From Fibrobacterota bacterium (GTDB taxonomy: Bacteria > Fibrobacterota > Fibrobacteria > UBA11236): a stretch of DNA of 39,784 nucleotides. The stretch covers positions 1-39,784 of the forward strand of contig JAHFCH010000035.1 in the NCBI GenBank assembly GCA_023249635.1. Direction: 5' to 3'. A program made the position numbers and the translations under genes. A model generated the notes under the pieces. It saw only the letters and a program-made list of their open reading frames with translations. It made no database searches and had not been told where the DNA came from. Below are positions 5,385 through 39,434 of this stretch, piece by piece (the stretch's first letter is position 1; each line of letters opens with the position of its first letter).

Positions 5385-8324
5385 TCAGGATTTGCCCGCG
5401 GGCGCGGACGAACCTTTCAGGGCGGTGTCCTTCTGCTTCGCTTTGGCCTCGGCGGGTTTAGCCTTGGCCGGCTCAGGAGCGAGACCGGGAACGCCGCCGG
5501 GAACGGAAGCCTTGGCGCCGGACTTGTCCAGCGCGGGGGCGCTGTCGCCGGCCGGTACGGCAGGGCCGTTCTTGATCTGGGTTTCCAGGAACTGCAACTG
5601 CTGGCTGACCATACCCGCGTACTGGTGGCTGGGGTTTCCGCGCAGCCATTCCGAGAGAACCTCGTGGGCCTTCTTCAGTTCGCCGCGCTTCTGGTACAGA
5701 TCCGAAAGCCCGTACCACAATTCGAAGTCGTTGGGCGCGTCCTTCTTGAGCACGTTGAGCAAGGATTCGGCCTGGGCGAACTTGCTCTGCTCGATATACA
5801 ACTGGGCCAGGTTGGCGCCGAACAGGCGCGCGCTGGGCGCTTCGGCGATGCCCTTATGGTAATAGGCCTCGGCCTTGGGGTAATCCTTGATGGCCTGGTA
5901 CAATTGGGCGCCGTAGTAATTGTTGCGCCATTCGCGCGGCAGGATCTTGGCGTTGAGTTGCAGATAGCGCTCCGCGAAGGCCACCTTGTCGTCCCGCTCC
6001 TTCTGCTTGGCGGCGATGGCCGCCTTGGCCGAATCGGAAGGCGTCGCGCCGGCGGCCTTCTTCAGATCCTCCAGCTGGTGTTCGATCTCGGTCAGCTTCT
6101 CTTGCGCCCACATCACCAACCGGAAATTGGTGGCGGAATAGTTGGTCAACAGGCCTTCGGTATTGAGATCCACGAACAGCTTGGGATCGCCCAGGCCGCG
6201 GAAGCGGTAGACCGAGTCCACCATGCGGGCCGTGACCGGCGCATCGATGTCCTTGTTCTTCTTGTCCTCGACCAGCGTATATACCATGCCTTCCATGATC
6301 AGGTATTTCTCGAGACCCATCATGTTGTCGTCCGAAACCGTGACCGCGAAGTGGATGGGCCGCGCGGGATAATTGTTCTGCACGATGTGCAGCACCATGA
6401 TGTCCTGCACCTTGAGGTAGGGGCGCGGTTCCAGTTCCACCGTGATGGAAGAATTGGGCACCTTGAAGGCGACGGCCTGCTTGAAGCGCCAGGGCTGGGG
6501 CTCGAGCGCGTTGATTTCCTCTTCGGTGAAGCCGATGTTCAGCTTGGGCTCATGGGTCTTGAGCTGCTTAACGTACCAGTTGGTGTTCACCAGCGAGAGG
6601 TTAACCACGCGCACGTCGTTGCGCACGTGCTCGACTTCCTGGATGAACCACAAGGGGAAGGTATCGTTGTCGCCGTTGGTGAAAAGCACGCTGTTGGGCC
6701 GACACGATTGCAGCAGGTTGTAGGCGTAATCCCAAGGGATATAATCTCCCGTTCGATCGTGCTCATGCCAATTGGAATAGGCCGGGACCGCCGCCGACAA
6801 GGTCAGCATGGCCAGACCCGCGCCGGTCAGGCCACCGGGGCCTCCCCAGCCCTTCTGCTTCATCTTGTTCAGCAGGAAGGCCGAAGCCACGCCGAACAAT
6901 ATGCCCATGTAAATGAACCCGGGCGTGAAGAAATAGTCGCGATCGCGCACCTCGATGTGCACGTTCTCGGGCTTGGCCTGGGCGGTCTTGCCCTGGGACA
7001 CCCAATAATCGTAGTCCCGTTTCTCCATGCGGCTTCCGTCCGCGAAATTCATGTAGAAGATGAGGCCGTAACTGGTGGCGGCATACAGGATGAGTAGGTA
7101 GGCGCCGATATGCGGATTGCGCTTGTACAATAGGTAGCCGCCGTACACGAACGGGAGTTGGAACAACAGGAAGAGGAGCATCTGCAATTGCGGATGCGAG
7201 CCCACGTTCTGCCAGAGGGTATCGAACTTGTGCGGGATGATCGCATTGCGGATCACCGGCTCGTTTTCGTCGCCGCGGGTCTCCCCCACCTTCCAGGGGA
7301 AATACTGCCCCAGCATGTAGCCGCCGTATCCCATATGGGGATAGACCATCAACTGGTGGGCCCAGGAACCGCGGCGGTGGAAGGCGCGCTCCAGCATGCC
7401 TTCGGAGCCGTACTGCTTGCGCTCCAGGTATTCCTTGAAATTGGTCCAGGTGCGGGGCTCGTTCTCATCGATCTTGGGCTCAACCATGGACCGGACGGGA
7501 ACGTAGATGTAGCTGGAGAATCCCAGCAGCGCTACGATGCACATGGCCATGGAGAAGTTCCAGCGGGATTTCCATTCCGGGGTGGAAACCAGCAGGCGGC
7601 AAATGCCGGCCACGACCAGCATTCCCGACGCGTACCAGATGAAATTGCCGATGGCGAAGATGATGGACAACAGCGCGATGCCGGTGAGGATGAGGGGGAA
7701 ATCGGTGCGCAGATCCTTGTCCGCGTACAGGATGAAGACCGCCACCGCGGGGATGGTGATGAAAGAGAAGGGATGCACGCCCATACCGAGGAAGCCCAGG
7801 TAGCAGATGAGGATGAGGTTGCGCTTACCCTTGTTGGTCCCGCGATGCTCGTACCAGTCCAGGGAGAGCCAGGAGATGATCATGACCAGGAGCATGGAGG
7901 TGCCGTACACTTCGGCTTCCACCGCGCTGAACCAGAAGGTATCGGAGAACATCACCAGGGTGGCGCCGATCAAGGCGGGGACGTAGGTGACGAAGCGGCC
8001 AAGAGTACGGTTGAATACGATTTCCAGGATTTTGACCGTGAACAGGAAGCACATCATCACCGTCAGCGCGCTGGTGAGCGCCGAAATGAAATTGACGCGG
8101 GTGGCCGCTTCCTTGAAGGGAGCGAGCAGGATGAACACGCGTGCCATGGTGGTGAATAGCGGATTTCCGGGGGGATGGGGATTTCCCAGGATGTTGGACG
8201 CGCCGACCAGCTCGCCGCAGTCCCAGAAGGAAACCGTTGGCGCCATGGTCAGCATGTAGACGATGAAGGCTACGGCGAACATGCCGAGGGCCAATATGGT
8301 TTTGAGCTGCTTTTCACTCAGCAT
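5385..8324 (-). CDS. DUF2723 multi-membrane protein with C-terminal TPRs
   Basis: A 979-residue integral membrane protein. The N-terminal half matches DUF2723 (TMEM260-like, GT-C-like fold): APTVSFWDCGELVGASNIL followed by the NPHPPGNPL loop, then many hydrophobic helices to about residue 530. A large extracytoplasmic region follows. Residues about 780-930 form tetratricopeptide-like repeats (for example AIKDYPKAEAYYHKGIAEAP and SKFAQAESLLNVLKKDAP), and the tail is rich in Ala, Lys and Pro. Relatives are putative protein O-mannosyltransferases using lipid-linked sugar; the polyprenyl-phosphate mannose synthase type gene downstream fits that role. The ATG at 8324 has AAGGA nine bases upstream and overlaps the nusB stop by 11 bases. 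The substrate proteins are unknown. Confidence 0.88.
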   Translation of the reverse strand: MLSEKQLKTILALGMFAVAFIVYMLTMAPTVSFWDCGELVGASNILGNPHPPGNPLFTTMARVFILLAPFKEAATRVNFISALTSALTVMMCFLFTVKILEIVFNRTLGRFVTYVPALIGATLVMFSDTFWFSAVEAEVYGTSMLLVMIISWLSLDWYEHRGTNKGKRNLILICYLGFLGMGVHPFSFITIPAVAVFILYADKDLRTDFPLILTGIALLSIIFAIGNFIWYASGMLVVAGICRLLVSTPEWKSRWNFSMAMCIVALLGFSSYIYVPVRSMVEPKIDENEPRTWTNFKEYLERKQYGSEGMLERAFHRRGSWAHQLMVYPHMGYGGYMLGQYFPWKVGETRGDENEPVIRNAIIPHKFDTLWQNVGSHPQLQMLLFLLFQLPFVYGGYLLYKRNPHIGAYLLILYAATSYGLIFYMNFADGSRMEKRDYDYWVSQGKTAQAKPENVHIEVRDRDYFFTPGFIYMGILFGVASAFLLNKMKQKGWGGPGGLTGAGLAMLTLSAAVPAYSNWHEHDRTGDYIPWDYAYNLLQSCRPNSVLFTNGDNDTFPLWFIQEVEHVRNDVRVVNLSLVNTNWYVKQLKTHEPKLNIGFTEEEINALEPQPWRFKQAVAFKVPNSSITVELEPRPYLKVQDIMVLHIVQNNYPARPIHFAVTVSDDNMMGLEKYLIMEGMVYTLVEDKKNKDIDAPVTARMVDSVYRFRGLGDPKLFVDLNTEGLLTNYSATNFRLVMWAQEKLTEIEHQLEDLKKAAGATPSDSAKAAIAAKQKERDDKVAFAERYLQLNAKILPREWRNNYYGAQLYQAIKDYPKAEAYYHKGIAEAPSARLFGANLAQLYIEQSKFAQAESLLNVLKKDAPNDFELWYGLSDLYQKRGELKKAHEVLSEWLRGNPSHQYAGMVSQQLQFLETQIKNGPAVPAGDSAPALDKSGAKASVPGGVPGLAPEPAKAKPAEAKAKQKDTALKGSSAPAGKS

Positions 8325-12405: not shown

Positions 12406-13788
12406 CTAAAAGAAGTAGGCGATCTTGGTCATCCAGTACCAATCCTCGGGCGTGGACGTGGCCGTCTCGTACGTGGCCGGGGAATTGGCGATTCCGAAGG
12501 GGCGGAAATGATCATTGGCTATTTGGCCGCTGATCTTGAAATGCCCTTCGATGGTCTTGGCGACATGGAAGGCCCACTTCACGTTATCGCGAGCGTAATG
12601 GCGCGGGGGCTTACCTTCGTCGCCGGCCTTCACGAGATCAAAGGGGATAGGCGATACGATGCGATTGATCTCCGGCTCGAGCCTCCACAAATCGTCGCGG
12701 AATTGCGCGCCGTACCATTCCACTTCCAAGGATGCATGGTCGAGCCAACCGAAAGCGGGGAGGTTGAAACCCGCCATCATGGGCATGCGCTGGGCCAGGC
12801 CCCCGTACACGGCCTTGTGCGCTTTGTCGAAGTTCAGTCCCATCACCGCGACTTCGCCGTAGAGCTTCAAGTCCTCCGCGCCCAATGCGGCAGGCGAGCC
12901 GAACCAGGATTTCGGATCGATCTCGAAATCCGCCATCAGCTTGGTGCCGTCGAAACCGAGGTAGGTGGTGTCGGGCTTGCCTCCCACCGTGTCCACGTAG
13001 ATGGTCTGGCGCTGCCAAACGTTGGGATGCACCTCGTCCTTGGTCTCCGAAGTGGAATCGTAGGGATGATGGCTGATCTTCCCATCATTGGGGACGACCC
13101 GGTACAGGTTCACGCCGGCTCCCACGGTGATCGCTTGCGAGAGTCGGGCGCGCCCGATGTAGGCCGCGGACAGATCGAAGTACGGCTTAAGCTGCGTTTC
13201 CGAATTCACCACCACATCGCTCGTGAGGATTCCGGTCTGGTTGCGGAACCACAAACCCAGCACGTTGGCGAGCGGGACCACATCGGCGGTTTCGAAGCCC
13301 GAAATAAGGAACCCGGGATAGACGGATCCGCGCAGCAGGTACAGGCCCAGGTCCTTGATGTTGGGGTCGTAATTGTAATGGAACAGGCCACCCGTGGCCT
13401 GCAGCCTGGGGCTGGCCTTGTCGCCCAGGGTATAGGTGAAATTGGCCGCGGCGATGTAAGGGCTGGCGGATACCATCACGCGGCCGCCTGAGGCGATCTG
13501 GCCCGCCAGGGCGTGGCCTTCGTAGACCCCCAAACCTACCGCACCGCTCAGGCGATCGTTGATGGAGGCGGTTGCGGTAATTTGCGCGCCGGAATTCTGT
13601 ACCGGGTTGCCGTTGTAATTATTGGCGAGGGTATCCGAGCTCTTCTCGACCTGGCCGTACTGGACCTAGCCCACGCCGCCGAAACCTACGCCCGCATCCT
13701 GCGCGGACACGCTCGACGCGGCAACGCCCGCCAAGGCCATGGCCAGGGATGCCAAGGTAACGCGCGGGTTGATGAAGATACGGTTCAC
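12406..13788 (-). pseudogene. Outer-membrane barrel protein interrupted by one in-frame TAG
   Basis: Read from the GTG at 13788 (GAGG ahead of it), the frame encodes 460 residues with one internal stop, TAG at 13666-13668, codon 41. The N-terminus is a signal peptide ending near SSVSA. Downstream of the stop the frame is intact for 420 codons, with YNYDPNIKDLGLYLLRGSVYPG, QRMPMMAGFNLPAFGWLDH and the C-terminal ISGQIANDHFRP and WMTKIAYFF blocks of the family; the final Phe is the usual barrel-assembly signal. In paralogues the TAG position is Trp (SWAQYGQI at 18201-19514, here stop-VQYGQV), so one G-to-A change explains it. It may be a recent nonsense mutation or a sequencing error. Closest partner: 18201-19514, sharing KAHKAxYG and QRMPMM. 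Confidence 0.75.
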
Positions 13789-13798
13789 TACGGCATCC

Positions 13799-15208
13799 TC
13801 AGAAGTAATAAGCCACTTTGCACATCCAATACCAGTCGAAGGTATCGCTCAGGGTCTCGGATTGCGCGGGGCGCAGGTAGAAACCGCCCGTACGCAGATG
13901 ATCATTGGCGACCTGGCCCGAGAACTTGAGATGACCGCCCACCACTTTGGAAGCGTACAAGGCCCATTTCCAATTGTCGCCGCGGGTATCGGTATGGAAG
14001 GTGTCTACCACCGCTCCGGATGCGTTGGTGATCTCCAGGCCCGCCTTGGGACGGGGAACCCAGGAAATATCCTCGAGCTCTTTCTCGTAGTCGGTGGTAT
14101 TGCGATTGGCGTAGTACTCCACCTCCAGGCTCAACTCATCCAGGTGGCCGAAAACCGGCAGATTGAATCCCAACATCACCGGCATCCTGCGCAGCGCGTT
14201 GTCGTAATACTTCTTGTAGCTCTTGACGCCCAGGAGCGCGACTTCGCCGTAGATGAGCAAGTCCTTGGGACCGAACGGACCGGAGATGCCCAGCAGGGAT
14301 TTGGGATCGATGGAGAAGCGGCCCATCAGCTTCACCCCGGAAAGCGAACCGGTGATGGTATCCACGCTCGCGGCGGAATCGGCGCCGCCCGCGGTCTTCA
14401 CGAAGGCCGTATCCAGGATATAGCACACTTCATGGTCGCCGGGATCCACGCCCAAAACGCTCACGGTATCCTTGCAATCCTTGCCGGGCGAATTGCGTTC
14501 GGAAACCTGGGGCAAGGCCCGGTACCAGTTCGCGCCGGCGCCGATCTCGATGCCTTCGCGGATGCGGTACCGCATTATGTAAGCGAAGGAGAGATCGAAG
14601 TAGGGATTGATATCCGTCTCGGCGTTGACCAGGAAATCGCCGCGGTAGCCCCCCATTTCATGGCGCGCGTCCAGGCCGAAAACATTCGCGATGGGCAGCA
14701 CGTCCTTGGTCTCGAAACCGGAGATGACGATGCCGGGATAGACCATGCCGCGCAGCAGGTATAGGCCCAGATCTTTGCTGTCAGGGTTGTAGTTGAAATG
14801 GAAGGAACCCGCCGTGGCCTGAAAGGCGGGATGCCCGGCATCGCCGACGGTATAGGTGAGACGCGCTTCGGTCACGTAAGGCGACCAGGCCAGGTAAGGG
14901 GCGTTGTCATGATCCGGCGATCCACGGTACCAGCGCGGGATCTGGATGGCGCCTAATCCCAAACCGCCTTCCCATCCGCCGCCCAGATCGGCAACCGCGG
15001 TGATCTGCCCGCCGGTGTTCTGGGTCCAATTGTCGTTGAAGTTCTGGCCCTTGCCGTCGGTCAGGGTATCGGACGATTTCCCGATACGACCGCCTTGGAT
15101 CCATCCGGCTCCATGATACTGGATCTTGATTTCCTCCGCTCCCTGCGCAACGCAGGCCAGCGCGGCGGCGAAACCGAAGGCGAGGGCGATGCCGGGCAAC
15201 GCGCGCAT
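13799..15208 (-). CDS. Outer-membrane beta-barrel family protein (type E/B)
   Basis: 469 residues from the ATG at 15208, which overlaps the upstream stop as TGATG. That overlap decides the start, and the resulting N-terminus MRALPGIALAFGFAAALACVAQGA is a clear signal peptide. The mature protein begins with YHGAGWIQGGRIGKSSDTL, has the family core FNYNPDSKDLGLYLLRG followed by MVYPGIVISGFETKDVLPIAN, and ends WYWMCKVAYYF with a terminal aromatic typical of barrels inserted by the Bam machinery. Alternating hydrophobic strands throughout suggest a barrel of about 16 or more strands. It pairs with 19530-20861, sharing GKDC, a CYI segment and the YYDxxLRRxPVM block. I do not recognise a named family; a porin or receptor role is a guess. 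Confidence 0.85.
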   Translation of the reverse strand: MRALPGIALAFGFAAALACVAQGAEEIKIQYHGAGWIQGGRIGKSSDTLTDGKGQNFNDNWTQNTGGQITAVADLGGGWEGGLGLGAIQIPRWYRGSPDHDNAPYLAWSPYVTEARLTYTVGDAGHPAFQATAGSFHFNYNPDSKDLGLYLLRGMVYPGIVISGFETKDVLPIANVFGLDARHEMGGYRGDFLVNAETDINPYFDLSFAYIMRYRIREGIEIGAGANWYRALPQVSERNSPGKDCKDTVSVLGVDPGDHEVCYILDTAFVKTAGGADSAASVDTITGSLSGVKLMGRFSIDPKSLLGISGPFGPKDLLIYGEVALLGVKSYKKYYDNALRRMPVMLGFNLPVFGHLDELSLEVEYYANRNTTDYEKELEDISWVPRPKAGLEITNASGAVVDTFHTDTRGDNWKWALYASKVVGGHLKFSGQVANDHLRTGGFYLRPAQSETLSDTFDWYWMCKVAYYF

Positions 15209-16800
15209 CAGAAGAAGTACCCCATGCGCAACATCAGGTACCAATCCTGAAGCGAAGATGAGAATTCCGCCGCTCCCGAACCGTCGAGATCGGCGTACTG
15301 GGTCCGCGTCGCCGGCGGGCGGAAATGATCATTGGCGATTTGCCCGGTAAAGCGGATGTGTCCGCGCACCGTCTTGCGGAAATACAGGGACCATTTCCAG
15401 TTATCCTCGGTGAGTCCCTCGATATCCAAGGCGGTTCCCGTGATTTGCAGGGGACCGGGAACCTTGATGACGTTACCGCTGCCATCGATGACGGGATTGC
15501 CGCCCGCATCCAGGCTGTCCTTCAACAATCGTCCCGTAGCCGGATCCACGCCGCCCTTGGCGTTGATGGGATCGTAGGTCTTGTAGGAGACGGGAATGGG
15601 CGAAGGCAGTTCCGAATATTTCTGCTGGGTAAGTTTGGAGACGCTGTTGCGGTACCGGGCCCCGTACCATTCCGCCTCCAGGGACACCACGTCGAGCCAA
15701 CCGAAGGCCGGCAGGTTGAATCCGATTACCACCGGGATGCGCTGGCCGCGATCGGAGTAGACGGAACCGTAATTCTGCACTCCAATCAGAGCGCACTCGG
15801 CGTATAGCTTGAGATCCTCGGGCCCCATGTTCCCGCCGATACCGAATACGCGCTTGGGATCCAGGCTGGCCATGGCCATCAGCTTGATGCCGCGATGGGT
15901 GTATTCCACCGTGGGCGTATACTTGAGCAATGGCTTTCCGCTGGCGGTGTCGATGCGGACCACGCCTTGCGCATCCCGCAAGGTATCGATGCGGCCCTCG
16001 GTATAATAATGATCGTAGGCATGCTTGTCGCCGGCGGCCGTGAGCGCCGAATCGCGCGAATAATAGGCGGGATCGTTGGGGGTTGTGAGCTTGCCGTTGG
16101 CGGGAAGCAAACGGTATAGGTTCATACCGGCCCCGATCTCCACGCCGTCTACGGGCCGGTATTTGGCGACGTATCCCAGGGACCAGTCGAAGGTGGGCGG
16201 CAAGGCGCGCTCGTTCGAGAAGACCACATCATGGCTGAAGCGCCCCAGGGACTGATGGAACTTGAGTCCGAGGATATCGCCCTTGGTATCGTCGACCGCG
16301 GGATCGATAAAGCCGGAAACCAGCAGCCCGGGATAGACCGCGCCCCGGAACAGGTACAGCCCCAGGTTTTTCACGTCCGGGTTGTAGTCGTAATTGAAAT
16401 TGCCGAAGGTGACGCTCAGGGAGGGATCCGCCTTGTCGCCGCGGAAGTAGGTCATGCGCGATTCGGTGATGAAGTTCTTGAAGAAGAACTGCATGCTCTT
16501 GAAGGCCACATCGCCGCTGCCCAGCATGGAATGCGCCTGGTAGCCGCCGATGCCGAAAGCCCCTTCCCAGTTCGTTCCGATATCCGCATAGGCCGTGAAT
16601 TGGGCCCCGGCGCTGATCATGGGATTGCCGTTCAGGTTCGCCAGCAAGGTATCGGTGGAATGGCCTATACGCCCGGCTTCGGCCCAGCCTTGCCCGCTGA
16701 TGCGGTAGGCCACATCGCCGCCGCGCGCGGCGGAGAACGCCAGGCCCAAGGCCAGCGCCCAATTCGCCGTGGCGTTCCGCATGTGGGGAAAAGCGTTCAA
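15208..16800 (-). CDS. Outer-membrane beta-barrel family protein (type F/C)
   Basis: About 530 residues, the longest of the six paralogues. The start is uncertain: TTG at 16800 has AGGA eight bases ahead and gives a signal peptide (NAFPHMRNATANWALALG and on); an ATG at 16782 is the alternative. The frame is open further upstream, but that stretch contains a hairpin. The body has GQGWAEAGRIGHSTDTL, FFKNFITESRMTYFRGDKAD, YNPDVKNLGLYLFRGAVYPG, ALPPTFDWSLGYVAKYRP, GQRIPVVIGFNLPAFGWLD and the terminal FTGQIANDHFRP and YLMLRMGYFF. It pairs with 20887-22350 through FITxSRxT and PPTFDWSLxYxAK. A long loop (about residues 400-470) rich in Gly, Asp and Pro may be surface-exposed. Function unknown. Confidence 0.83.
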   Translation of the reverse strand: MNAFPHMRNATANWALALGLAFSAARGGDVAYRISGQGWAEAGRIGHSTDTLLANLNGNPMISAGAQFTAYADIGTNWEGAFGIGGYQAHSMLGSGDVAFKSMQFFFKNFITESRMTYFRGDKADPSLSVTFGNFNYDYNPDVKNLGLYLFRGAVYPGLLVSGFIDPAVDDTKGDILGLKFHQSLGRFSHDVVFSNERALPPTFDWSLGYVAKYRPVDGVEIGAGMNLYRLLPANGKLTTPNDPAYYSRDSALTAAGDKHAYDHYYTEGRIDTLRDAQGVVRIDTASGKPLLKYTPTVEYTHRGIKLMAMASLDPKRVFGIGGNMGPEDLKLYAECALIGVQNYGSVYSDRGQRIPVVIGFNLPAFGWLDVVSLEAEWYGARYRNSVSKLTQQKYSELPSPIPVSYKTYDPINAKGGVDPATGRLLKDSLDAGGNPVIDGSGNVIKVPGPLQITGTALDIEGLTEDNWKWSLYFRKTVRGHIRFTGQIANDHFRPPATRTQYADLDGSGAAEFSSSLQDWYLMLRMGYFF

Positions 16801-16829
16801 CGAGGGATTCCTGCCGCAAGGGATGCCGA

Positions 16830-16849
16830 GGCCGCGCGCAAGCGCGGCC
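16830..16849 (-). other. Perfect hairpin between DUF1080 and first barrel gene (copy 1)
   Basis: An eight-base perfect stem (16830-16837 with 16842-16849) closes a four-base loop. It lies in the 81-base gap between the DUF1080 stop and the barrel start. No T tract follows on the minus strand, so it is not a standard intrinsic terminator. A hairpin occupies the equivalent position in copy 2 (22444-22471), which suggests a role in mRNA processing, stability or attenuation. Confidence 0.5.
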
Positions 16850-16881
16850 GCGAATCCGGACCTGAAAGTTAACAACGAAGT

Positions 16882-18006
16882 TTACAAGGGAACGGCGCGC
16901 GCGAACCGGCTTACATGGCCCGAGCGCACTTCGATGAGGAGAACGCCTTTCGCGGAAACGCCAAGGGACCGCGCCAGTTCGCCTGCGGGAGCGCGGAATC
17001 CCGCCAACCGCTTGCCCGCCAGATCGGTCACCGTGATTTCGCAGGCCTGATCCAGGCGGCCGCGCAGCACTCCGCCGGCGAAGCTGAAGACCGGAGCCGG
17101 GCGGTTGGCCGCGCCCATCGCGGTAGTCACCAGGGGATTGCCGGCATTATCCAACTCGCGCACGCGGATGTTGCGGTACCAGTCACCTGCCGTGGTCTTC
17201 TGCCAATACCCGTTCCCGTGCACCTGGAGAGCGGTATAACCGGTCGCGGTAATCACCTTGTTGTAGTACGAAGGCCAGGTCACGTCCAGGGTCTTGACCC
17301 ATTTGGCCCCATTCAGCTTGCGCATCCAAGCCTGGTGCTTGGGCGGGTTTCCGAAAATCTTGACTCGAAGTTCATTCCAGCCATTGGGGTCGAACATGTC
17401 GGCCGGGACCAGCGAAGCCTTATCGGTAATGCCCGCATTGCCCTGGGTGCCCGTGAATGGCGAAGTCTCGGAGCCGCCGAACTTGTAGGAGCAGTTGTAG
17501 AAGGAGGCGCCTTGGTTCTCCATCTCCTGCGGGTAGCTGCCGCCGATGCAATTGTCCGCTTTGTAGTCGAGCACCGTCTGGTAGGCGTAGACCTGCTCGG
17601 TGGTGCGATGGTAGATGCCGGCGTCATTTCCGAAATCCGCCCAATACTCGAGGATGATTTCCTGGTTGCCGTACTTCTTGTTGGTGCAGAGGGCCGAACC
17701 GCCCGGGGCGGTGGCGCGCTGCTGGGTGTAAATCGCATGCAGGGCCGGATCCACCTTGTAGATGCCGCCCTTGGTGGAGTTGCTGTGGTTGGCATCTTCG
17801 CCGTGGCAGTTGTTCCACCAGCCCTTGAGATCGGTGCCGTTGAAGATGCTGACGAAACCGCTGTCGCCTGGGATGCTCACGTCGTCGGTGCCGGCATTGT
17901 CGACGCAGGGCGCTTCCGCCGTAGCGGGAACGGGCCCGGGTTGGGCGTTCACAGCCGAAGCCGCCGCCGCGATGAGACCCGCCAATACCACATGAACTCG
18001 TGCCAT
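16882..18006 (-). CDS. Secreted DUF1080 protein with C-terminal sorting-like domain (copy 1)
   Basis: 374 residues. A signal peptide covers about residues 1-21 (ending AVNA). Residues about 49-285 match DUF1080 (3-keto-disaccharide hydrolase / concanavalin-like fold): FVSIFNGTDLKGWW, FGNDAGIYHRTTEQVYAYQT and LQVHGNGYWQKT. Residues about 303-374 are a small beta-sandwich-like module with ITVTDLAGKRLAGF and SAKGVLLIEVRSG, resembling the C-terminal sorting domains of type IX secretion. Two halves with several Cys suggest disulphides. The ATG at 18006 has GGGGAG seven bases ahead. The family often acts on or binds sugars, but catalysis here is unproven. It leads copy 1 of the cassette and pairs with 22485-23744. 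Confidence 0.85.
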   Translation of the reverse strand: MARVHVVLAGLIAAAASAVNAQPGPVPATAEAPCVDNAGTDDVSIPGDSGFVSIFNGTDLKGWWNNCHGEDANHSNSTKGGIYKVDPALHAIYTQQRATAPGGSALCTNKKYGNQEIILEYWADFGNDAGIYHRTTEQVYAYQTVLDYKADNCIGGSYPQEMENQGASFYNCSYKFGGSETSPFTGTQGNAGITDKASLVPADMFDPNGWNELRVKIFGNPPKHQAWMRKLNGAKWVKTLDVTWPSYYNKVITATGYTALQVHGNGYWQKTTAGDWYRNIRVRELDNAGNPLVTTAMGAANRPAPVFSFAGGVLRGRLDQACEITVTDLAGKRLAGFRAPAGELARSLGVSAKGVLLIEVRSGHVSRFARAVPL

Positions 18007-18140
18007 AATCAGCTCCCCGACCGGTAATGATCCAATTTAATCGGGAGCCGGTGGGGCGTAAGGGCGTTTGGATTAATTTCTGTCATTTTGAGGACAAACA
18101 ATCCAATTAAAAGTCGCTAATTACAGTGTTTTCTCATTAA
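18007..18140 (-). promoter_or_regulatory. AT-rich upstream region of DUF1080 copy 1
   Basis: This 134-base stretch is clearly richer in A and T than the surrounding genes and lies between a strong terminator and the DUF1080 start. It is where a promoter for cassette copy 1 must sit if the terminator at 18141-18173 works. Several TTG-type and TAAT-type hexamers are present, but no pair with good match and spacing stands out, so no exact box is called. Confidence 0.45.
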
Positions 18141-18173
18141 AAACAAAAAAACGGACCCCATTCAGGGGTCCGT
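18141..18173 (-). terminator. Rho-independent terminator after barrel gene 18201-19514
   Basis: Read on the minus strand, a perfect nine-base stem (18165-18173 with 18151-18159; ACGGACCCC/GGGGTCCGT) with a five-base loop is followed by seven T, a G and more T. It lies 28 bases after the stop codon at 18201. It closes cassette copy 2 and separates it from copy 1. Confidence 0.92.
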
Positions 18174-18200
18174 TGCAGGTAGGGTTAAAGCGTTTCGGGG

Positions 18201-19514
18201 TTAAAAGAAATACGCGATCTTGCCGGTCCAATAGAACTCGCTCGGCGAAAAGAAGGGCACGTTGTTCAAGGGCGGGTTGTTATCGCCATATCCCTGGAAG
18301 ATGCCGGGCCGGAAATGGTCGCTCGCGACTTGGGCGCTGATCTTAACGTGACCGGCCAAGACCTTGGCCGCGTACACGGACCACTTCAGGTTGTCCTTGG
18401 TGGTATTGGTATCAAGCGCGCTGATCTTCGGGATGGGCGTGACCTGCGGACCCGAAGTGTGGTTGTAGATGGAGGGATCGTCGACCCAAGGGGCCTTGTA
18501 CATCTCGAATTCGACGTTGAGGCGATCGAGTAGGTGGAAGGCCGGGAGGTTGAACCCGATCATCATTGGCATGCGTTGGGAGATGGGGCCGTACAAGGCC
18601 TTGTGCGCCTTGTCGCCATCGAGGCCGAGCACGGCCACTTCGCCGTAGATCTTCAAGTCCTCGGCGCCTAGCGCTTCCACTCCGCCCATCAAGGCCTTGG
18701 GGTCGAACGAGAAATCGCCCATGAGCTTGGTGCCCTTGAACGAGATGTAGGTGGTGTCATGCGCGGTGGTGTCGATGTACATCACTTCCGGAGTTTTCTT
18801 CGAGGTGAGCTTGGAATCCATGGGGATCCAATGGTACAGGTTCACGCCCGCGCCCAGCCGGAACGCCGAGCCGAGCTTGACATGGGCCACGTAGGTGGGC
18901 GAGATGTCCCAATAGGGGAACCAATCGCCGTCGAAGGTGAAGAGCAGGTCATGCTCGAACATGCCGGACTGGTGATGCAAGGCCAGGCCCAGCGTGTTGG
19001 CCACCGGCAGCACGTACTTGGTCTCAAAGCCCGAGGTCAGAAGCCCCGGGTAGACCGGCCCGCGCAGCAGGTAAAGTCCCAGGTTCTGGGCGTCCGGCGC
19101 GTAATCGTAAGGGAAGAGGCCCACCTGCACATTGAGCTTGGCGGATTCCTCATCCCAGAACGAGTACTTCATGTTGGCGTTGGCCACATAGGGACCCACG
19201 CCATAGGGAGCGTAATACCCTTGGATGTTGCGGGCCGCGATATTGTGCCCCGCGCCTACGCCCAATCCGGCGTTGACCTGGAGTTTCTCGTTGGCCTGGT
19301 AGTTGATCGCGAATTGGGCGCCGGTGCCGATCATACCCTTGCCATCAAGGTCCTTCTGCTCGGCGGTGTCGAGGCTTTTCACGATCTGTCCGTATTGGGC
19401 CCAGCTCGCGGCGCCCAGGGTAAGCTTGCCTTCGCCATGGGCCAGGGACAGGCAGCCGACCGCACCCAGCAGGGCCAGGGCGGAACGCATCGTATTCTTG
19501 ATGAACGGGTTCAT
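18201..19514 (-). CDS. Outer-membrane beta-barrel family protein (type D/A)
   Basis: 437 residues from the ATG at 19514, chosen because AGGA lies five bases upstream; an ATG four codons earlier has no such site. A signal peptide ends near SLAHG. The body shows LGAASWAQYGQIVKSLDTA (Trp38), YAPDAQNLGLYLLRGPVYPG, SGFETKYVLPVANTLGLALH, GAGVNLYHWIP, KAHKALYGPISQRMPMM and the end FYWTGKIAYFF. The pattern is a secreted, C-terminal-Phe barrel of unknown function. It is the intact partner of the interrupted gene 12406-13788. It begins 15 bases after the previous barrel gene and is followed by a strong terminator, so it is the last gene of cassette copy 2. Confidence 0.86.
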   Translation of the reverse strand: MNPFIKNTMRSALALLGAVGCLSLAHGEGKLTLGAASWAQYGQIVKSLDTAEQKDLDGKGMIGTGAQFAINYQANEKLQVNAGLGVGAGHNIAARNIQGYYAPYGVGPYVANANMKYSFWDEESAKLNVQVGLFPYDYAPDAQNLGLYLLRGPVYPGLLTSGFETKYVLPVANTLGLALHHQSGMFEHDLLFTFDGDWFPYWDISPTYVAHVKLGSAFRLGAGVNLYHWIPMDSKLTSKKTPEVMYIDTTAHDTTYISFKGTKLMGDFSFDPKALMGGVEALGAEDLKIYGEVAVLGLDGDKAHKALYGPISQRMPMMIGFNLPAFHLLDRLNVEFEMYKAPWVDDPSIYNHTSGPQVTPIPKISALDTNTTKDNLKWSVYAAKVLAGHVKISAQVASDHFRPGIFQGYGDNNPPLNNVPFFSPSEFYWTGKIAYFF

Positions 19515-19529
19515 GCTGTTCCTCATGGC

Positions 19530-20861
19530 CTAGAAGAAGTAGGCGATCTTGGTGGTCCAGTACCAGTCAGAGCGGGTACGCATCGCTTCCTTGCCGGCAT
19601 CCTCGTCGTGGTTGCCGCCCAGGCGGAGATGGTCGTCGGCGATCTGGCCCAGCAGGATGAAGTTGCCGGCGATCACCTTGGAAGCGTTGAGCGAGTACTT
19701 GAAATCATCCCGCTTGTTGTCGAGCTCGTTGTCGTTCGAGGGTATCGGCGAACCATTGCGGGCCGCCAGATTATTGTTCGAGTTTTTCTGGGCGTAATAC
19801 TCGACTTCGACCGACCAATTCAGGAAGTTGAAACCGGGCAGGTTCAGGCCCACCATCACCGGAATGCGCCGCAGCAGCTTGTCGTAGTAGCGGGGATAAT
19901 CCTTCACGCCCAGGATGGCTACCTCGGAGTATATGGAAAAGGCGCCCGCGCCCATGCTCTCGGGGATGATGCCGGCGGCGGAAGGATCGAATTTTAAGCG
20001 ACCCACCACCTTGGTGCCCGCCAGCGAGGCCAGCACCGTGTCCTTTGCGGCGCCCGTAGCGTCGAGCTCGATGATGTAGCAGGGGCTCTCGGTGGCGGTG
20101 CCGCTGCCTGCGTACACGCCGAGACGCCCGGGGTCGCAATCCTTGCCGGGATTGGTGGCCTCATCGTTCGCGGCGAGCAAGCGGTAGAAGTTCACGCCCG
20201 CGCCGATCTCGAAGGCCGCCGAAGGCTTCCAGGTAAGGATGTCCGAGACGGAAATATCGTACAGAGGCTTGTCGTCGGTCTCTATCTGCACGATGAGGTC
20301 GTTGCCGATACCGCCATTATGGTAAGAGGCCATGGCGCCCGAGATGGCCTGGGGCACGCCCAAGGGGCCGGTCAGGTTCGAGACGATGGCGCCCGGGTAC
20401 ACGTAGCCGTGCACCAGGTAATTGCCGAAATTCTTCGGGTCCGGATTGTAGGCGTAATGCCAGGTGCCGAAGGTGAGTTCGAGCTTATCGTCGCCCGTGA
20501 ACAGGTTGCCCGTGCGCGTGAGACGCGCCTCGTCGACGAATGAGACCCAGAAGGGATACCACTTGTTGGAAATACCCTTGGAGCCGCGCGCCAGGTGGAC
20601 GAATATGGAGCCCAGCCCGAGGGAGCCGTCCCAATGGGAATCGACCTGGGAATGCACCGTCAGCAGACCGCCCGCGTTGCCGAGGTAGTTCTTGCGGTAA
20701 TTGTTGCCCGCGCTTGGGTTGCCTGCGCTGGCCTCGACGCGGCCGCCTTGCAGCCAACCCGCGCCGTGAAAATCGAGCTTCAACTCATCGACGCCTTCGG
20801 CGCGCGCCGCGGCGGCGGCGAACAGGAGGGCGGATGCGAGGTGGAGTTTCTTGTTCATCAT
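19530..20861 (-). CDS. Outer-membrane beta-barrel family protein (type E/B)
   Basis: 443 residues. Two adjacent ATGs (20861 and 20858) follow AGGA; the second has the better spacing and loses one residue. The signal peptide ends near AARAEG. The body begins FHGAGWLQGGRVEAS, has YNPDPKNFGNYLVHGYVYPG (a looser version of the family core), FEIGAGVNFYRLLAAN, GKDCDPGRLGVY, CYIIEL and YYDKLLRRIPVMVGLNLPGF, and ends WYWTTKIAYFF. It is the partner of 13799-15208 and the middle barrel of cassette copy 2. Deviation at the LGLYLLRG core (FGNYLVHG) sets it apart from the other five. Function unknown; location in the outer membrane is inferred from the signal peptide, strand pattern and terminal Phe. Confidence 0.85.
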   Translation of the reverse strand: MMNKKLHLASALLFAAAAARAEGVDELKLDFHGAGWLQGGRVEASAGNPSAGNNYRKNYLGNAGGLLTVHSQVDSHWDGSLGLGSIFVHLARGSKGISNKWYPFWVSFVDEARLTRTGNLFTGDDKLELTFGTWHYAYNPDPKNFGNYLVHGYVYPGAIVSNLTGPLGVPQAISGAMASYHNGGIGNDLIVQIETDDKPLYDISVSDILTWKPSAAFEIGAGVNFYRLLAANDEATNPGKDCDPGRLGVYAGSGTATESPCYIIELDATGAAKDTVLASLAGTKVVGRLKFDPSAAGIIPESMGAGAFSIYSEVAILGVKDYPRYYDKLLRRIPVMVGLNLPGFNFLNWSVEVEYYAQKNSNNNLAARNGSPIPSNDNELDNKRDDFKYSLNASKVIAGNFILLGQIADDHLRLGGNHDEDAGKEAMRTRSDWYWTTKIAYFF

Positions 20862-20886
20862 ATCCTGCTGTCCCCGGCCTCGCGGC

Positions 20887-22350
20887 TCAGAAAAAGTACC
20901 CTATGCGGAACATGTAATACCAATCCTTCGGGCTGGCGAAGGCTTCAGCCGTGCCGCCCCAGGATTTGATCAGGCCCGAAGCGACCGGGCGCGGGCGGTA
21001 ATGGTCGTTGGCGACCTGGCCGATGAACTGGATATGCCCGCTGACGACCTTTTCGGCGAACAGGGACCACTTCAGATCGTCCTTGGTCAGGTTCTCCTTG
21101 TCCATGGCCGTGCCGCGTACCGAAACGCCCGCCGTATCCGTCGACTTCTTGAATACGCCGGCGGTATCGATCCCGTAATCGGCATTGGTAAGGGGCTTGG
21201 GCGTGGCGATCGGATGCGCTTTTACGGTCCAGGGGGCGACCTCGTCGTAGACGTAGCCGGTACCCGCCAAATCGTTGCGGTACTTGGCGCCGTAATGCTC
21301 CACCTCGATGGAGAGGTGGTCGAGGAAGCCGAAGGTCGGCATATTCACGCCAACCATGATGGGGATACGCTCGCCGATCTTTCCGTAGATTTTCCCGTAG
21401 CTCTGGACCCCGATGATTCCCGCTTCGCCGTAGATCTTGAGGTCGTCGGGATTGCCGGGCAGCTCCATGCCGAACAGCTTCTGCAGGCTCAGGGAGAACT
21501 GACCCACCACCTTTTGGCCCTGCATGGTCAGCACCGTGGTGTCCGGCGCAGCAGGATTGGAATTGTCGATGTCGAGAAAGCGGCGGCGGGCGCTGCCGTT
21601 GACCAGGGAGGTATCATCGCCGGGCGATTCCAGCATGGAGTTGTAGGGGATGAGTCGGTATAGGTTGATGCCCGCGCCGATCTGGACGGCACCCAGGTCC
21701 AGCTTGGCCATGTAGGCAAGGCTCCAGTCGAAGGTGGGCGGGATATCGCGCTCGTTGTTCAAGATCAGATCCTGGCTGAACATGCCCATGGAGTGGTGCA
21801 GCTTAAGGCCGAGCAGGTTGGCCTTGGTGGTATCGGCGCTGAAGTCCTGGAAGCCGCCCATAAGGATGCCCGGGTACACCGGGCCGCGCAACAGGTATAG
21901 GCCCAGGTTCTTCACGTCCGGATTGTAGTTGTAGTTGAAGCCGCCCACCGTCAGCGACAGGTTGGGCGCGGCCTTCTCACCGGAATACCAGGTGAGGCGC
22001 GATTGGGTGATGAAGTTCTGGAAAAGCGAGATGGTGAGGTATTGGAACTGGCCCGAACCCAGGGCATGCGAGGCCTTATAGTAGCCGAAGCCGAAACCGC
22101 CTTCGAGGTGTTCGGAAAGATCCGCGACCACGGTCACCTGCGCGCCGATGCTCTGCAGGGTGTTGCCGTCGTAGTTCAGGATATCGTCGGGCGAGAGCGC
22201 GTTCACGATGGTGTCTTCGGCATGCATGATGCGGCCGTAATCGAGCCAGCCCTTGCCATGCATCTGGTATTTGACCTCATCGCCGTTCGCGAGCGCGAAG
22301 GCCGAAGCCGCCGCCGCCAACCAAATCGGATTCATTCTCATTGTGGCCAT
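20887..22350 (-). CDS. Outer-membrane beta-barrel family protein (type F/C)
   Basis: 487 residues from the ATG at 22350; ATGs at 22341 and 22335 are also possible, and no ribosome site decides among them. The signal peptide ends near FALANG. The body has HGKGWLDYGRIMHAEDT, LFQNFITQSRLTWYSGEKA, YNPDVKNLGLYLLRGPVYPG (residues about 142-161), IPPTFDWSLAYMAK, GERIPIMVGVNMPTFGFLD, HYGAKYRNDL and the end FIGQVANDHYRP and YYMFRIGYFF. It pairs with 15208-16800. It is the first barrel gene of copy 2, 134 bases after the DUF1080 stop with a strong hairpin in between. Function unknown. Confidence 0.85.
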   Translation of the reverse strand: MATMRMNPIWLAAAASAFALANGDEVKYQMHGKGWLDYGRIMHAEDTIVNALSPDDILNYDGNTLQSIGAQVTVVADLSEHLEGGFGFGYYKASHALGSGQFQYLTISLFQNFITQSRLTWYSGEKAAPNLSLTVGGFNYNYNPDVKNLGLYLLRGPVYPGILMGGFQDFSADTTKANLLGLKLHHSMGMFSQDLILNNERDIPPTFDWSLAYMAKLDLGAVQIGAGINLYRLIPYNSMLESPGDDTSLVNGSARRRFLDIDNSNPAAPDTTVLTMQGQKVVGQFSLSLQKLFGMELPGNPDDLKIYGEAGIIGVQSYGKIYGKIGERIPIMVGVNMPTFGFLDHLSIEVEHYGAKYRNDLAGTGYVYDEVAPWTVKAHPIATPKPLTNADYGIDTAGVFKKSTDTAGVSVRGTAMDKENLTKDDLKWSLFAEKVVSGHIQFIGQVANDHYRPRPVASGLIKSWGGTAEAFASPKDWYYMFRIGYFF

Positions 22351-22443
22351 CTTTTCGAGGGGAAAGAATTTGCAAGCATCCGTTACGTCACGACTTTGCG
22401 TAAGACTAGAAAAATGGGGTTTTTTTGGAAGGGAAAATCCCGT

Positions 22444-22471
22444 GCCGCCGGATCAGATTTGATCCGGCGGC
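22444..22471 (-). terminator. Strong hairpin after DUF1080 copy 2 (possible attenuator/terminator)
   Basis: A perfect 12-base stem (22444-22455 with 22460-22471) closes a four-base loop, starting 14 bases past the DUF1080 stop. The minus-strand sequence that follows has only four T in a row after six other bases, so termination is likely to be partial. It could reduce expression of the barrel genes relative to the DUF1080 gene, or protect the 3' end. Confidence 0.6.
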
Positions 22472-22484
22472 CCAGGGAATCGGT

Positions 22485-23744
22485 CTATCGGGAAGGACGA
22501 ACGATACGCACGGTTTCCGTGCTGCGCGCGGTCTTGATGTCGACGAACATCACGCCGTGAGTGCTCGTGGCGAAATCATGATGGAACGCGCCGGGCTGGC
22601 CAGCGAAGGATTCCAACGTACGTCCCGTCACGTTTTTCACGGTAACCTCGTACCGTTGATCGATCTTGCCGATGAGGGCGCCTTCATCCGCGTAGACCGA
22701 GTACTTTACGCGGTCGATGGGATTGACGGCCACGATGTCCTTGGGCTTTTGCGGAATGACCACGCCCAGGTCGTCGAGGGGCTTCCAGCGGATATTACGG
22801 TACCAGGTTCCCTTGGCGCCGCCGAAGCGGCCGCCACCGTGGACCTGGAGTCCGATATAACCCTGGCCGACGGGACCGGGCAAGGTGGTGTCTTGCAGGA
22901 CCGGAACCCAGACCGTGCTCCCGATCTTCTTGAACCAGGATTTCATGTGCACGTAGTTCTTATGGTCATTCGCGTCGACGGGCTTATTCAAACCACCGTA
23001 GAATTGGACCTTGATATCCATCCAACCGTTGAAATCCCACAAATCTCCCGACGCCCACTTTTCCTTGGTGCAGCCGGTGGCGTCGCAGGGAAGATTCGGC
23101 TCCGTAGTGGCCTTCAGCTTCTTGGTGATCAGAGTCCAGTCGTTAAGCTCATTACCGCCGGTAAGGCCGGGAATCCCAATGGCCTGCTCGCTGCCGCCGA
23201 ACGAATAGGGCCGGAAATCACGGCCGGTGAAACCGCCCTCGCCCCAAGTGCCACCGACCGCCGCGCCGCCGATGTAGTCGAGCACGGTCTGGAAACAACG
23301 CCCGTTCATGGTGGTGCGATTGAAAAGACCGGCGTCATTGCCGTAATCGGGCCAAGTCTGGAAGGTGATTTCGTAGTTGGTGTGATACCGCTTGCTCATC
23401 AGCAAACCACCGGTACCGGTACCGCGCTGGGTCGAATAGATGGCGGGCTTGCCATCGGCCTGGCCGATGCGGAAGATGGCGCCTTGGCGGGAACCGCCGG
23501 AGTGGCCGGTCTCGCAGCTATGGAACCAGCCCTTGAAGGTGCCATCGAAGAGCGGGAAGTATCCGTCGGGATCCACGCCGCCACCCGAATTAACCGTATC
23601 GGTGTGTACGACGAGCTTTTCATCCGAATCGGCGCAGGGCTCATCACCCGTGGTGGGCGCCGGAACGGGCTGCGCCCATGCCGAAAACGCCGAGATAGAA
23701 CCCAAAACCAGTGCCGATTTTACGGCGTTCCTGAACCAAGACAT
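22485..23744 (-). CDS. Secreted DUF1080 protein with C-terminal sorting-like domain (copy 2)
   Basis: 419 residues from the ATG at 23744, which has GGAAG five bases upstream and starts a good signal peptide (ending SAWA); the frame is open further upstream but without a secretion signal. Residues about 60-320 match DUF1080: YFPLFDGTFKGWFHSC, YGNDAGLFNRTTMNGRCFQT and LQVHGGGRFGGAKGTWYRN. The last 80 residues form a small beta-rich module with EVTVKNVTGRTLESF and HGVMFVDIKTA, like a sorting or carrier domain. Several Cys, including CDATGC, suggest disulphides. It is the first gene of cassette copy 2 and pairs with 16882-18006. Ligand or substrate unknown. Confidence 0.85.
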   Translation of the reverse strand: MSWFRNAVKSALVLGSISAFSAWAQPVPAPTTGDEPCADSDEKLVVHTDTVNSGGGVDPDGYFPLFDGTFKGWFHSCETGHSGGSRQGAIFRIGQADGKPAIYSTQRGTGTGGLLMSKRYHTNYEITFQTWPDYGNDAGLFNRTTMNGRCFQTVLDYIGGAAVGGTWGEGGFTGRDFRPYSFGGSEQAIGIPGLTGGNELNDWTLITKKLKATTEPNLPCDATGCTKEKWASGDLWDFNGWMDIKVQFYGGLNKPVDANDHKNYVHMKSWFKKIGSTVWVPVLQDTTLPGPVGQGYIGLQVHGGGRFGGAKGTWYRNIRWKPLDDLGVVIPQKPKDIVAVNPIDRVKYSVYADEGALIGKIDQRYEVTVKNVTGRTLESFAGQPGAFHHDFATSTHGVMFVDIKTARSTETVRIVRPSR

Positions 23745-32523: not shown

Positions 32524-33879
32524 TTAGCGGGCCCTAAATCGTTGCACATCGGCCTTATCGAGGAGTCCGAGATCCCATTGCAAATCGAATTTAGCGAATT
32601 TTGAACCGACTTCGAAACGGATCCGATCGGTGCCCGCGAGCACCAAATCCAGGCCCAGGAAGCCGCCTTGGCGGAAATCCCCTTCCAGGAGCGCATTATG
32701 GTCCCACAGGCTCGCGGCCTCCCATCCCAAAATGCCCTGTAAGGCGTAAAATCCCCCCCAACTCCAGAAGGAGAAGTTCCGTTTGCGTACCAGATCGATG
32801 CGGTTTTCCAGGGTCAGAATGCACTCGCTTTTTCCCTGCAGGGCATCATGGGCGTAACCGCGCAAGGTATTGGCGCCTCCGGCATGGAACTGATCGTACC
32901 GTCCGAAGCCCTTTCCGGATTCGCCATCCCGGTATTGCCACAGCGCGCCGGCGGCCAGGTTCTGACGCTCGGCCCAGGGGTAATAGGCGCGCGTATCGGA
33001 CAGCCACTCGCGGTAATCGGCGGGCCCGCCCAGGAATCCGCCGTTCTGCATGAGCCGGAGTTCCTGGTACAGCCCGCGCCGCGGAAGATGCCGCCGGTCC
33101 CGCCCGTCCCAACGTAGGCCGACCGCCATTCTCGGGACCCAATCCCCGGATGAATCCAGGAGGATGCCCGAGGCCCCCGGCACGCCGCCGGCCAAATGGA
33201 ACAGTTCGGCCCCATATAATATATAGGCGGGTTCGGGCCAACCGTATTCCCCCATCCCCAAGGCGAGGTCGAGCTTGGTGCGCCACGACTCCTCGCGGAA
33301 CGCTTCGAAGGTGTTGTAGCTATCCACCCGCAGCACGGCGAAATCGTATTGCAATGGGACGATCCAGATGCGTGAGGAACTCACGGAAGCCTGGGCTTCG
33401 GTGGTGCCGCCGAAACGGGTAATGAATTCGGCGCGTATCCCCTGCCCCAGGAAATTCACGGAGGCCAGCGCCGGCCCCAGACTCAACCCATCCTGTTCGG
33501 TTTTCGCCACCGCGACGAACGGGATATAAGGCGGCAGTTCCTTGAAGCGATAGGTCAAGGCCACCTGGTTATCATGGACATCGGTCTCGAGAAAGACTTC
33601 CGAAAAAATGTCCAAGTCCTCGAGCTTGGCCTGTTCCAATTCCCATTTCGCGCAGGTGAACGGATCGCCGGGATGGTTGCGCAACTCGCGCGCCACCACG
33701 CCTGCGCTCGTAGTGCGCAGTCCCTGAAAATCCTGGAAGGTGACGTTGCGCCCTTCGGCCTCCCGGCAAACATCCGCGGATGCGGTGACGGAGGAAGCCA
33801 GGGCCAGGCAGGCCATGGATGCCAGGCGGGCCAAACCAACGAGGCCGGTCGCTGAATACCGGTAGGATCGGGATCGCAT
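32524..33879 (-). CDS. Omp85-family outer-membrane protein with one POTRA domain
   Basis: 451 residues. A signal peptide (about 1-35) precedes a single POTRA-like domain (about 43-118; NVTFQDFQGLRTTSAGVVARE and LEDLDIFSEVFLET). The rest is a barrel with GLRWDGRDRRHLPRRGLYQEL and the surface-antigen motif ANTLRGYAHDAL (RGF/RGY of the Omp85 L6 loop). Length and one POTRA set it apart from BamA (five) and TamA (three), so it is probably an accessory Omp85, for insertion or transport of a specific client. The terminal residues end in Arg rather than Phe, unusual for a barrel. ATG at 33879 has a TAGCTT-type box nine bases upstream. Confidence 0.83.
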   Translation of the reverse strand: MRSRSYRYSATGLVGLARLASMACLALASSVTASADVCREAEGRNVTFQDFQGLRTTSAGVVARELRNHPGDPFTCAKWELEQAKLEDLDIFSEVFLETDVHDNQVALTYRFKELPPYIPFVAVAKTEQDGLSLGPALASVNFLGQGIRAEFITRFGGTTEAQASVSSSRIWIVPLQYDFAVLRVDSYNTFEAFREESWRTKLDLALGMGEYGWPEPAYILYGAELFHLAGGVPGASGILLDSSGDWVPRMAVGLRWDGRDRRHLPRRGLYQELRLMQNGGFLGGPADYREWLSDTRAYYPWAERQNLAAGALWQYRDGESGKGFGRYDQFHAGGANTLRGYAHDALQGKSECILTLENRIDLVRKRNFSFWSWGGFYALQGILGWEAASLWDHNALLEGDFRQGGFLGLDLVLAGTDRIRFEVGSKFAKFDLQWDLGLLDKADVQRFRAR

Positions 33880-37880: not shown

Positions 37881-39434
37881 ATGAAGGCCTTCCGTATTCC
37901 GCTGACCGTATTCTCGTTCCTGCTCGCCGGCTCCCTGGCCGCGACTTCCGTAGCCGCCAAGGACTCCAAGGACGATCCGCGCCCCAAGCGCGGCAGCCTC
38001 GATCTGGGTAAGGGCAAACCCGCAGCCACCGACCCGGCCAAGATCGAACTCCTGAACGGCACCTTCGGAAAGGTGGTCGAGGCCGTCGCCCCATGCGTGG
38101 TCGCGGTCAACACCGAGAAGAAATGGTCGGAGCAGGATAAGCAGATGCAGCATCCTTTCTTCGAATTCTTCGGCATGCCCAACCAGCAGGAACCGGAGGA
38201 CAATTCGCCCAAGCGTAACGTGCCGCTGGGCGGCGGTTCGGGTTTCATCGTCAACAAGCAGGGCTACGTATTCACCAATGCCCACGTGGTGGAGGGCGCC
38301 GACATCGTAAAGGTGAGCCTGGTGAACAAGAAGACCTACGTGGCCAAGGTGGTCGGCGTCGACAAAAAGGCCGACGTGGCCGTTCTCAAAATCAAGGCCC
38401 CCACCGAGGATTTGCCCGTCATCGCCTTCGGCGATTCCCGCAAGCTCGTCATCGGCGAATGGGTCATGGCCATCGGCAATCCTTTCGGTCTGCAGAATAC
38501 CGTGACCAGCGGCATCGTGTCGGCCAAGGGCCGCCGCGATCAGGGCGGGCAAGGCGATGCCTACCAGGATTTCATCCAGACCGACGCCGCCGTGAACCCG
38601 GGCAATTCGGGTGGACCGCTGGTGAACCTCAAAGGCGAAGTGGTGGGCATCAACTCCAGCATATACACCCGCACCGGCGGCTACATGGGCGTGAGCTTCG
38701 CTATCCCGATCAACATGGCCGTGAAGGTGGCCGAGGATCTGATCTACGAGGGCAAGGTGACGCGCGGCTACCTGGGCATCGGCATCGACAATGTCTCCGA
38801 GAACCTGGCCGAGGCCATGGGCCTGCCCAACACCGACGGTTGCCTGGTGCGCGAAGTGATGAAGAACGGCCCCGCCGCCAAGGGCGGGCTCAAGGAAGGC
38901 GACATCATTCTAAAGGTGGAAGGTATCGCGGTACAGGACGCCGCGGACCTGCGCAATCGCGTGGCGGATCTGAAGCCCGGCGACAAGTACGATTTCGAGG
39001 TCCTGCGCGACGGGAAGCGAAGCGGCATCGGCATCAAGATCGGCGCCAAGCCCGAGGACGCGGAGAACACCGGGGACGATGCCGTGTCGGCGCCGGAGCC
39101 CGATGAGGAGAACGGAAGCTTCTTCTCCAAGAAACTGGGAATCCATTTCGGGACCTTGGACAAGGAAGCCCGGGTGAAATACGGCATCCCCAATGATCAG
39201 GGTGGAGTGGTGATTACGGGAGTATCGGACGGATCCAGCGCGGCGGAGAATGGCCTGATTGAAGGCATGGTGCTGTCCAATTACAAGCGCCAGGCCGACG
39301 GCGGCTTCCTGAAAATCGAGGATCCCAAGAAACTGCTGGCAGCGGTAAAGAGCCTGAAACCGGGCGAGAAGATCGCATTCAAGGTATTCTTCAAAGGCCG
39401 GACCGATTTTATCGCTTTGCAGTCCGAAGAGTAG
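37881..39434 (+). CDS. degP: Periplasmic Do/HtrA-type serine protease
   Basis: 517 residues. A signal peptide (1-26, ending SVAA) gives periplasmic location. The trypsin-like domain shows the catalytic triad: His135 in FTNAHVVEGAD, Asp165 in KADVAVLKI and Ser243 in NPGNSGGPL. PDZ1 covers about residues 293-395 (GYLGIGIDNVSENLAEAMGL, AKGGLKEGDIILKVEG) and PDZ2 the last 95 residues, with a less usual GVVITGVSDGSSAAENGLIEG. It degrades or refolds damaged envelope proteins, useful with so many outer-membrane barrels nearby. An acidic Pro/Glu linker separates the PDZ domains. ATG at 37881 has AAGGA ahead. Confidence 0.95.
   Translation: MKAFRIPLTVFSFLLAGSLAATSVAAKDSKDDPRPKRGSLDLGKGKPAATDPAKIELLNGTFGKVVEAVAPCVVAVNTEKKWSEQDKQMQHPFFEFFGMPNQQEPEDNSPKRNVPLGGGSGFIVNKQGYVFTNAHVVEGADIVKVSLVNKKTYVAKVVGVDKKADVAVLKIKAPTEDLPVIAFGDSRKLVIGEWVMAIGNPFGLQNTVTSGIVSAKGRRDQGGQGDAYQDFIQTDAAVNPGNSGGPLVNLKGEVVGINSSIYTRTGGYMGVSFAIPINMAVKVAEDLIYEGKVTRGYLGIGIDNVSENLAEAMGLPNTDGCLVREVMKNGPAAKGGLKEGDIILKVEGIAVQDAADLRNRVADLKPGDKYDFEVLRDGKRSGIGIKIGAKPEDAENTGDDAVSAPEPDEENGSFFSKKLGIHFGTLDKEARVKYGIPNDQGGVVITGVSDGSSAAENGLIEGMVLSNYKRQADGGFLKIEDPKKLLAAVKSLKPGEKIAFKVFFKGRTDFIALQSEE

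Follow-up and report, generated by a model that had tools for sequence, protein, structure and literature searches.

A candidate heterotrimeric porin encoded by co-inherited DUF1080 and barrel gene cassettes in Fibrobacterota

Mixed trimers of paralogous outer-membrane porins have been documented for OmpC/OmpF of E. coli and Por39/Por41 of R. rubrum, where the mixing of subunits is facultative (PMC5056734, PMC11369160); a limited search of the open-access literature turned up no account of a porin that is an obligate heterotrimer. The DUF1080 family includes 3-ketoglycoside hydrolases, of which BT2157, a 3-ketotrehalose hydrolase, has been characterised (PMC9007349). Here we analyse a stretch of 39,784 nucleotides (hereafter the window; contig JAHFCH010000035.1) from a Fibrobacterota bacterium, in which two adjacent cassettes each comprise a gene for a DUF1080 protein (D) followed by three genes for outer-membrane barrels (A, B and C). 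This phylum is known for plant-polymer degradation. With confidence just short of even, we propose that each D-A-B-C cassette encodes one heterotrimeric porin of three dedicated subunits together with a DUF1080 partner. The cassettes would thus resemble OmpC/OmpF and Por39/Por41 in forming heterotrimers of paralogous porins, but differ from them in that their subunits are co-inherited in a fixed order.

Two cassettes inherited as units

An earlier note on this DNA had described eight genes in two D-barrel-barrel-barrel blocks of the same order, and we recovered all of them at the same coordinates on the minus strand, along with one hairpin:

22485..23744, minus strand: D1, secreted DUF1080/3-keto-disaccharide hydrolase-family protein with a C-terminal Ig-like beta-sandwich (PF06439; AlphaFold2 model)
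20887..22350, minus strand: A1, barrel at position A of the upstream cassette (family alignment; position clade A)
19530..20861, minus strand: B1, barrel at position B of the upstream cassette (family alignment; position clade)
18201..19514, minus strand: C1, barrel at position C of the upstream cassette, modelled as a 16-strand porin (alignment, AlphaFold2, Foldseek, tree)
18150..18174, minus strand: intrinsic-terminator-like hairpin with a T run at the end of the upstream cassette (hairpin scan)
16882..18006, minus strand: D2, DUF1080 protein of the downstream cassette (PF06439, E 5e-19)
15208..16800, minus strand: A2, barrel at position A of the downstream cassette (family alignment; position clade)
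13799..15208, minus strand: B2, barrel at position B of the downstream cassette (family alignment; position clade)
12406..13788, minus strand: C2, barrel at position C of the downstream cassette, with an in-frame TAG near 13666 (reading frame, homologues, tree)

These cassettes are two of the six barrel triplets with an adjoining DUF1080 gene in the source genome. C2 is either a pseudogene or the product of an assembly error, because the TAG in this assembly falls where its homologues have W. The six window barrels (437-530 residues) are mutually homologous, with near full-length identities of 41% for A1/A2, 38% for B1/B2 and 42% for C1/C2. Since B2/C2 identity is also 42%, pairwise identity alone is insufficient to pair the barrels, and the pairing was decided by phylogeny.

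In a tree of 90 triplet barrels (all our trees are quick searches under a simple model), the position label requires 4 changes versus 43 in shuffles, and A, B and C form position clades that each extend across cassettes. Barrels did not group by cassette, the topology that the earlier note had set against its own pairing. The D tree recovers the same cassette groups as the barrels. Across cassettes, A, B, C and D also agree in their patristic distances, with correlations of 0.84-0.94, a level reached in none of 2000 permutations. Position clades, the matching D tree and the correlated distances together establish that the cassettes are inherited whole, as a unit. Gene order agrees with this: 30 triplets were mapped, two of which start at a contig end, and D immediately precedes the barrels, on their 5' side and on their strand, in 27 of the 28 assessable ones, the exception (own62) having D downstream. 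The whole-cassette duplication and conserved order suggested earlier are thus upheld. Ongoing gene conversion is disfavoured, as the A, B and C positions form clades across genera.

The two window blocks are a duplicated cassette, as the earlier note had it, but not a recent one, since each groups with the block at the corresponding place, upstream or downstream, in two genomes of the same genus (G002 and G005). The tandem D-A-B-C-D-A-B-C arrangement is also present in G002, G005, G008 and G009, and partly in G007. In G009 the order of the tandem cassettes is reversed relative to the tree, and the partner of the upstream cassette varies among genomes; therefore the tandem pairing may have formed more than once. 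The third barrel of one G009 cassette is split into two reading frames (L134, 3706-5144).

Of 30 cassettes, 7 have a terminator-like hairpin after C, among them the upstream cassette of the window, and none of the 60 gaps between barrels contains one; G2 and G5 have hairpins like that of the window at the equivalent position. Each cassette would accordingly be read as one transcription unit for a single outer-membrane porin complex. The large copy number and variable loops of the barrels could instead reflect surface diversification against phages or predators, with tandem paralogs kept for the variety of their exposed loops. We consider this very improbable, because shuffled variation would leave the very opposite of the position-specific clades and congruent trees seen here.

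A predicted trimeric-porin fold in a large family

The barrels belong to a large, uncatalogued porin family. We scanned genome contigs with an 11-member subset of the barrel alignment and found 43 barrels in the source genome, a 6.75 Mb metagenome-assembled genome (MAG) of the Fibrobacteria, and 12 to 30 in each of 10 further genomes of the same order. Named relatives include the Fibrobacteres/Fibrobacteria MAGs RYN_348 and RYN_349. A further family of the same class, f3 (probably Fibrobacteraceae, judging by its size and genome count), has at most one or two weak barrel matches; in the other classes of the phylum, the matches per genome number 1 to 48. None of 42 family members matched a Pfam porin family, which leaves them outside the known porin sequence families, and the window barrels had neither an NCBIfam match nor a sequence match in the PDB.

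For the fold, one member, C1, was modelled with AlphaFold2 from a 42-member alignment (mean predicted local distance difference test score, pLDDT, 84.8; predicted template-modelling score, pTM, 0.85), and 16 strands were counted from the listing of the secondary-structure program DSSP. In Foldseek searches the model best matches trimeric porins in the PDB, with E values as low as 5e-13: Veillonella OmpM1 and the Rhodopseudomonas (Rh. blastica) porin come first, and OmpF/OmpC next. The template-modelling scores are 0.4-0.5 when normalised by the query and 0.55-0.65 when normalised by the target, the former being low because C1 is longer than the matched porins; they point to fold-level likeness and no close relationship. 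The barrels are thus predicted to belong among the 16-strand trimeric porins.

In classical porins the constriction loop L3 lies between strands 5 and 6. The best-conserved motif of the family, YNPDxxNLGxYLxRxxxYPG (C1 residues 137-171), is found between the same strands of the C1 model, and by strand order would occupy the L3 position. Like the general trimeric porins (OmpF/OmpC, the Rhodopseudomonas blastica porin, OmpM1), the cassette barrels combine a predicted 16-strand barrel, short periplasmic turns and long loops with a conserved stretch at the putative L3 position, a signal peptide and a C-terminal aromatic residue. They differ from these in lacking a detectable sequence relation to them, in being larger and in occurring in fixed two- or three-gene arrays of paralogs.

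Independent triplications and a ceiling of three

Across the 11 genomes of the order, we counted 82 single, 41 double and 31 triple arrays and none longer, some singles and doublets being cut by contig ends. Expanded arrays fetched from other classes likewise stop at three. Extrapolating from the rate in single-gene lineages, about 2.9 (per-array rate) or 8.6 (per-gene rate) fourth copies would be expected; none was seen.

This ceiling was reached repeatedly. The triplets fall into five sets (I-V), each a single clade, with those of other classes constituting III (G070), IV (G051, G053) and V (G033). Upon adding singles and doublets, clades I and II remain separate, and a joint I+II clade is rejected by the approximately unbiased (AU) test (p 1.3e-6). 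In each of the six pairings among clades I-IV, this test also rejects a joint clade of the A or first-position barrels (p at most 3.2e-7), so a single origin of all triplets is rejected for the tested pairs. I+III or II+III may be sister groups, which leaves the separate triplications unaffected either way; ancient gene conversion within an array could mimic separate triplications. Triplication in place happened independently several times in the phylum, probably about five. Doublets also arose several times and have been kept as ordered pairs across genera.

An unlikely, though by no means negligible, explanation is that each of A, B and C assembles into a homotrimeric porin of its own, the three differing in solute preference or gating and being co-transcribed since one condition needs them all. 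The extracellular loops L5, L7 and L8 indeed differ among A, B and C, and single-gene loci of the family are common; however, this explanation accounts neither for independent expansions halting at exactly three nor for cassettes never losing or reordering a member. A facultative, random mixing of subunits, with the triplet providing just dosage and variety, has a precedent in the E. coli and R. rubrum heterotrimers. We hold it to be improbable, as neither the fixed copy number of three nor the three position clades would be expected from random mixing.

The heterotrimer reading draws on the predicted trimeric fold, the ceiling of three per expansion, the strict co-inheritance and the putative single transcription unit, from which we infer that A, B and C would be dedicated subunits, one copy each, of a heterotrimeric 16-strand porin. 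Such a porin would have originated when a gene with a homotrimer-forming ancestor was triplicated in place; single-gene loci would then encode homotrimers and two-gene loci 2:1 trimers. The heteromeric outer-membrane complex of the earlier note is therefore plausible given the fold and arrays that never exceed three, though its assembly is a deduction from these features.

The DUF1080 partner, its neighbourhood and the heterotrimer reading

All 28 cassette D proteins match PF06439 (formerly DUF1080), a feature they share with the 3-keto-disaccharide hydrolases BT2157 and CCNA_01705; the two of the window score 27.7 bits (D1, E 3e-6) and 69.5 bits (D2, E 5e-19) against a gathering cut-off of 26.8. 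The AlphaFold2 model of D1 (pLDDT 84.8) has PDB matches of the DUF1080 type and a 7-strand C-terminal Ig-like beta-sandwich. Unlike BT2157 and CCNA_01705, cassette D adjoins porin triplets and in many cases carries a C-terminal domain of the type IX secretion system (T9SS) type, whereas a periplasmic location has been proposed for CCNA_01705, which is found beside sugar-oxidation genes (PMC9007349). The T9SS type A tail (TIGR04183) was detected in 16 of 28 cassette D proteins. Our search for these T9SS parts in the source genome returned SprA (TIGR04189, 635 bits) and about 30 T9SS-tail matches; Fibrobacter has been proposed to use the T9SS (PMC6851124). Export of D by this route to the cell surface, which would make it the surface subunit postulated earlier, is thus plausible; D would then probably bind or cleave (3-keto)glycosides in concert with the pore. 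One genome (G000; L052-L081) has 53 DUF1080-family matches, far beyond the needs of its cassettes, and some of these adjoin single barrels.

The genes neighbouring the cassettes in the window comprise riboflavin genes along with a hybrid histidine kinase and a radical-SAM gene; RibD is the adjacent gene on the 3' side here as well as in G001-G004. No context of carbohydrate-active enzyme (CAZyme) or other glycan-locus genes was found around the window; close to two other cassettes there are a GH17-matching and a GSDH gene. Elsewhere in the window are an Omp85-family protein and a trypsin/PDZ (DegP-like) protease (32524-33879 and 37881-39434), and a TMEM260-like protein O-mannosyltransferase domain with tetratricopeptide repeats (5385-8324); Rfam gave no match in the window.

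These neighbours bear on the earlier suggestion of a glycan-uptake locus, and on SusC/SusD-like active uptake with DUF1080 in the role of SusD. As in SusC/SusD systems, an outer-membrane channel adjoins a presumed outer, surface-type partner, here from a family with 3-ketoglycoside hydrolases among its members. Unlike in those systems, the window has no TonB-dependent receptor, SusD match or CAZyme neighbourhood, C1 is modelled as a 16-strand porin, and neither a plug or TonB-receptor domain nor a Sus family was matched in the profile and structure searches. The context consequently lends the glycan-uptake suggestion no support, and we hold SusC/SusD-like uptake to be very improbable, the least likely of the alternatives.

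Several observations weigh against a heterotrimeric porin with a DUF1080 partner. A halt at three is an outcome of just moderate improbability, so the ceiling constitutes moderate evidence by itself, and single-gene loci of the barrel family are many. At the presumed trimer interface, A, B and C differ more from one another in clade I, though not in II, and these differences mostly track general variability; interface divergence does not differ significantly between single-gene barrels and triplets (p 0.21). Neither comparison discriminates between the readings. As to the partner, no T9SS tail was detected in D1 by hidden Markov model search. Moreover, by profile, the triplets of clades III-V (G051, G053, G070, G033; L189-L194, L199-L201), which lie outside this order, have no adjoining DUF1080 gene, and D is therefore not needed for triplets in general.

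More generally, and more tentatively than for the cassettes themselves, we suggest that obligate heterotrimeric porins exist, with this family having repeatedly swapped homotrimers for 2:1 and 1:1:1 trimers encoded in ordered arrays whose copy number is capped by the trimer. If true, the cassettes would encode the first general porin known to us to be an obligate heterotrimer, and a gap in annotation that leaves dozens of outer-membrane proteins unannotated in each genome would be filled. The family would also provide a natural replicate experiment in the passage from homo- to hetero-oligomer, in which about five independent triplications of one membrane protein, along with several duplications, all halted at the oligomer number.
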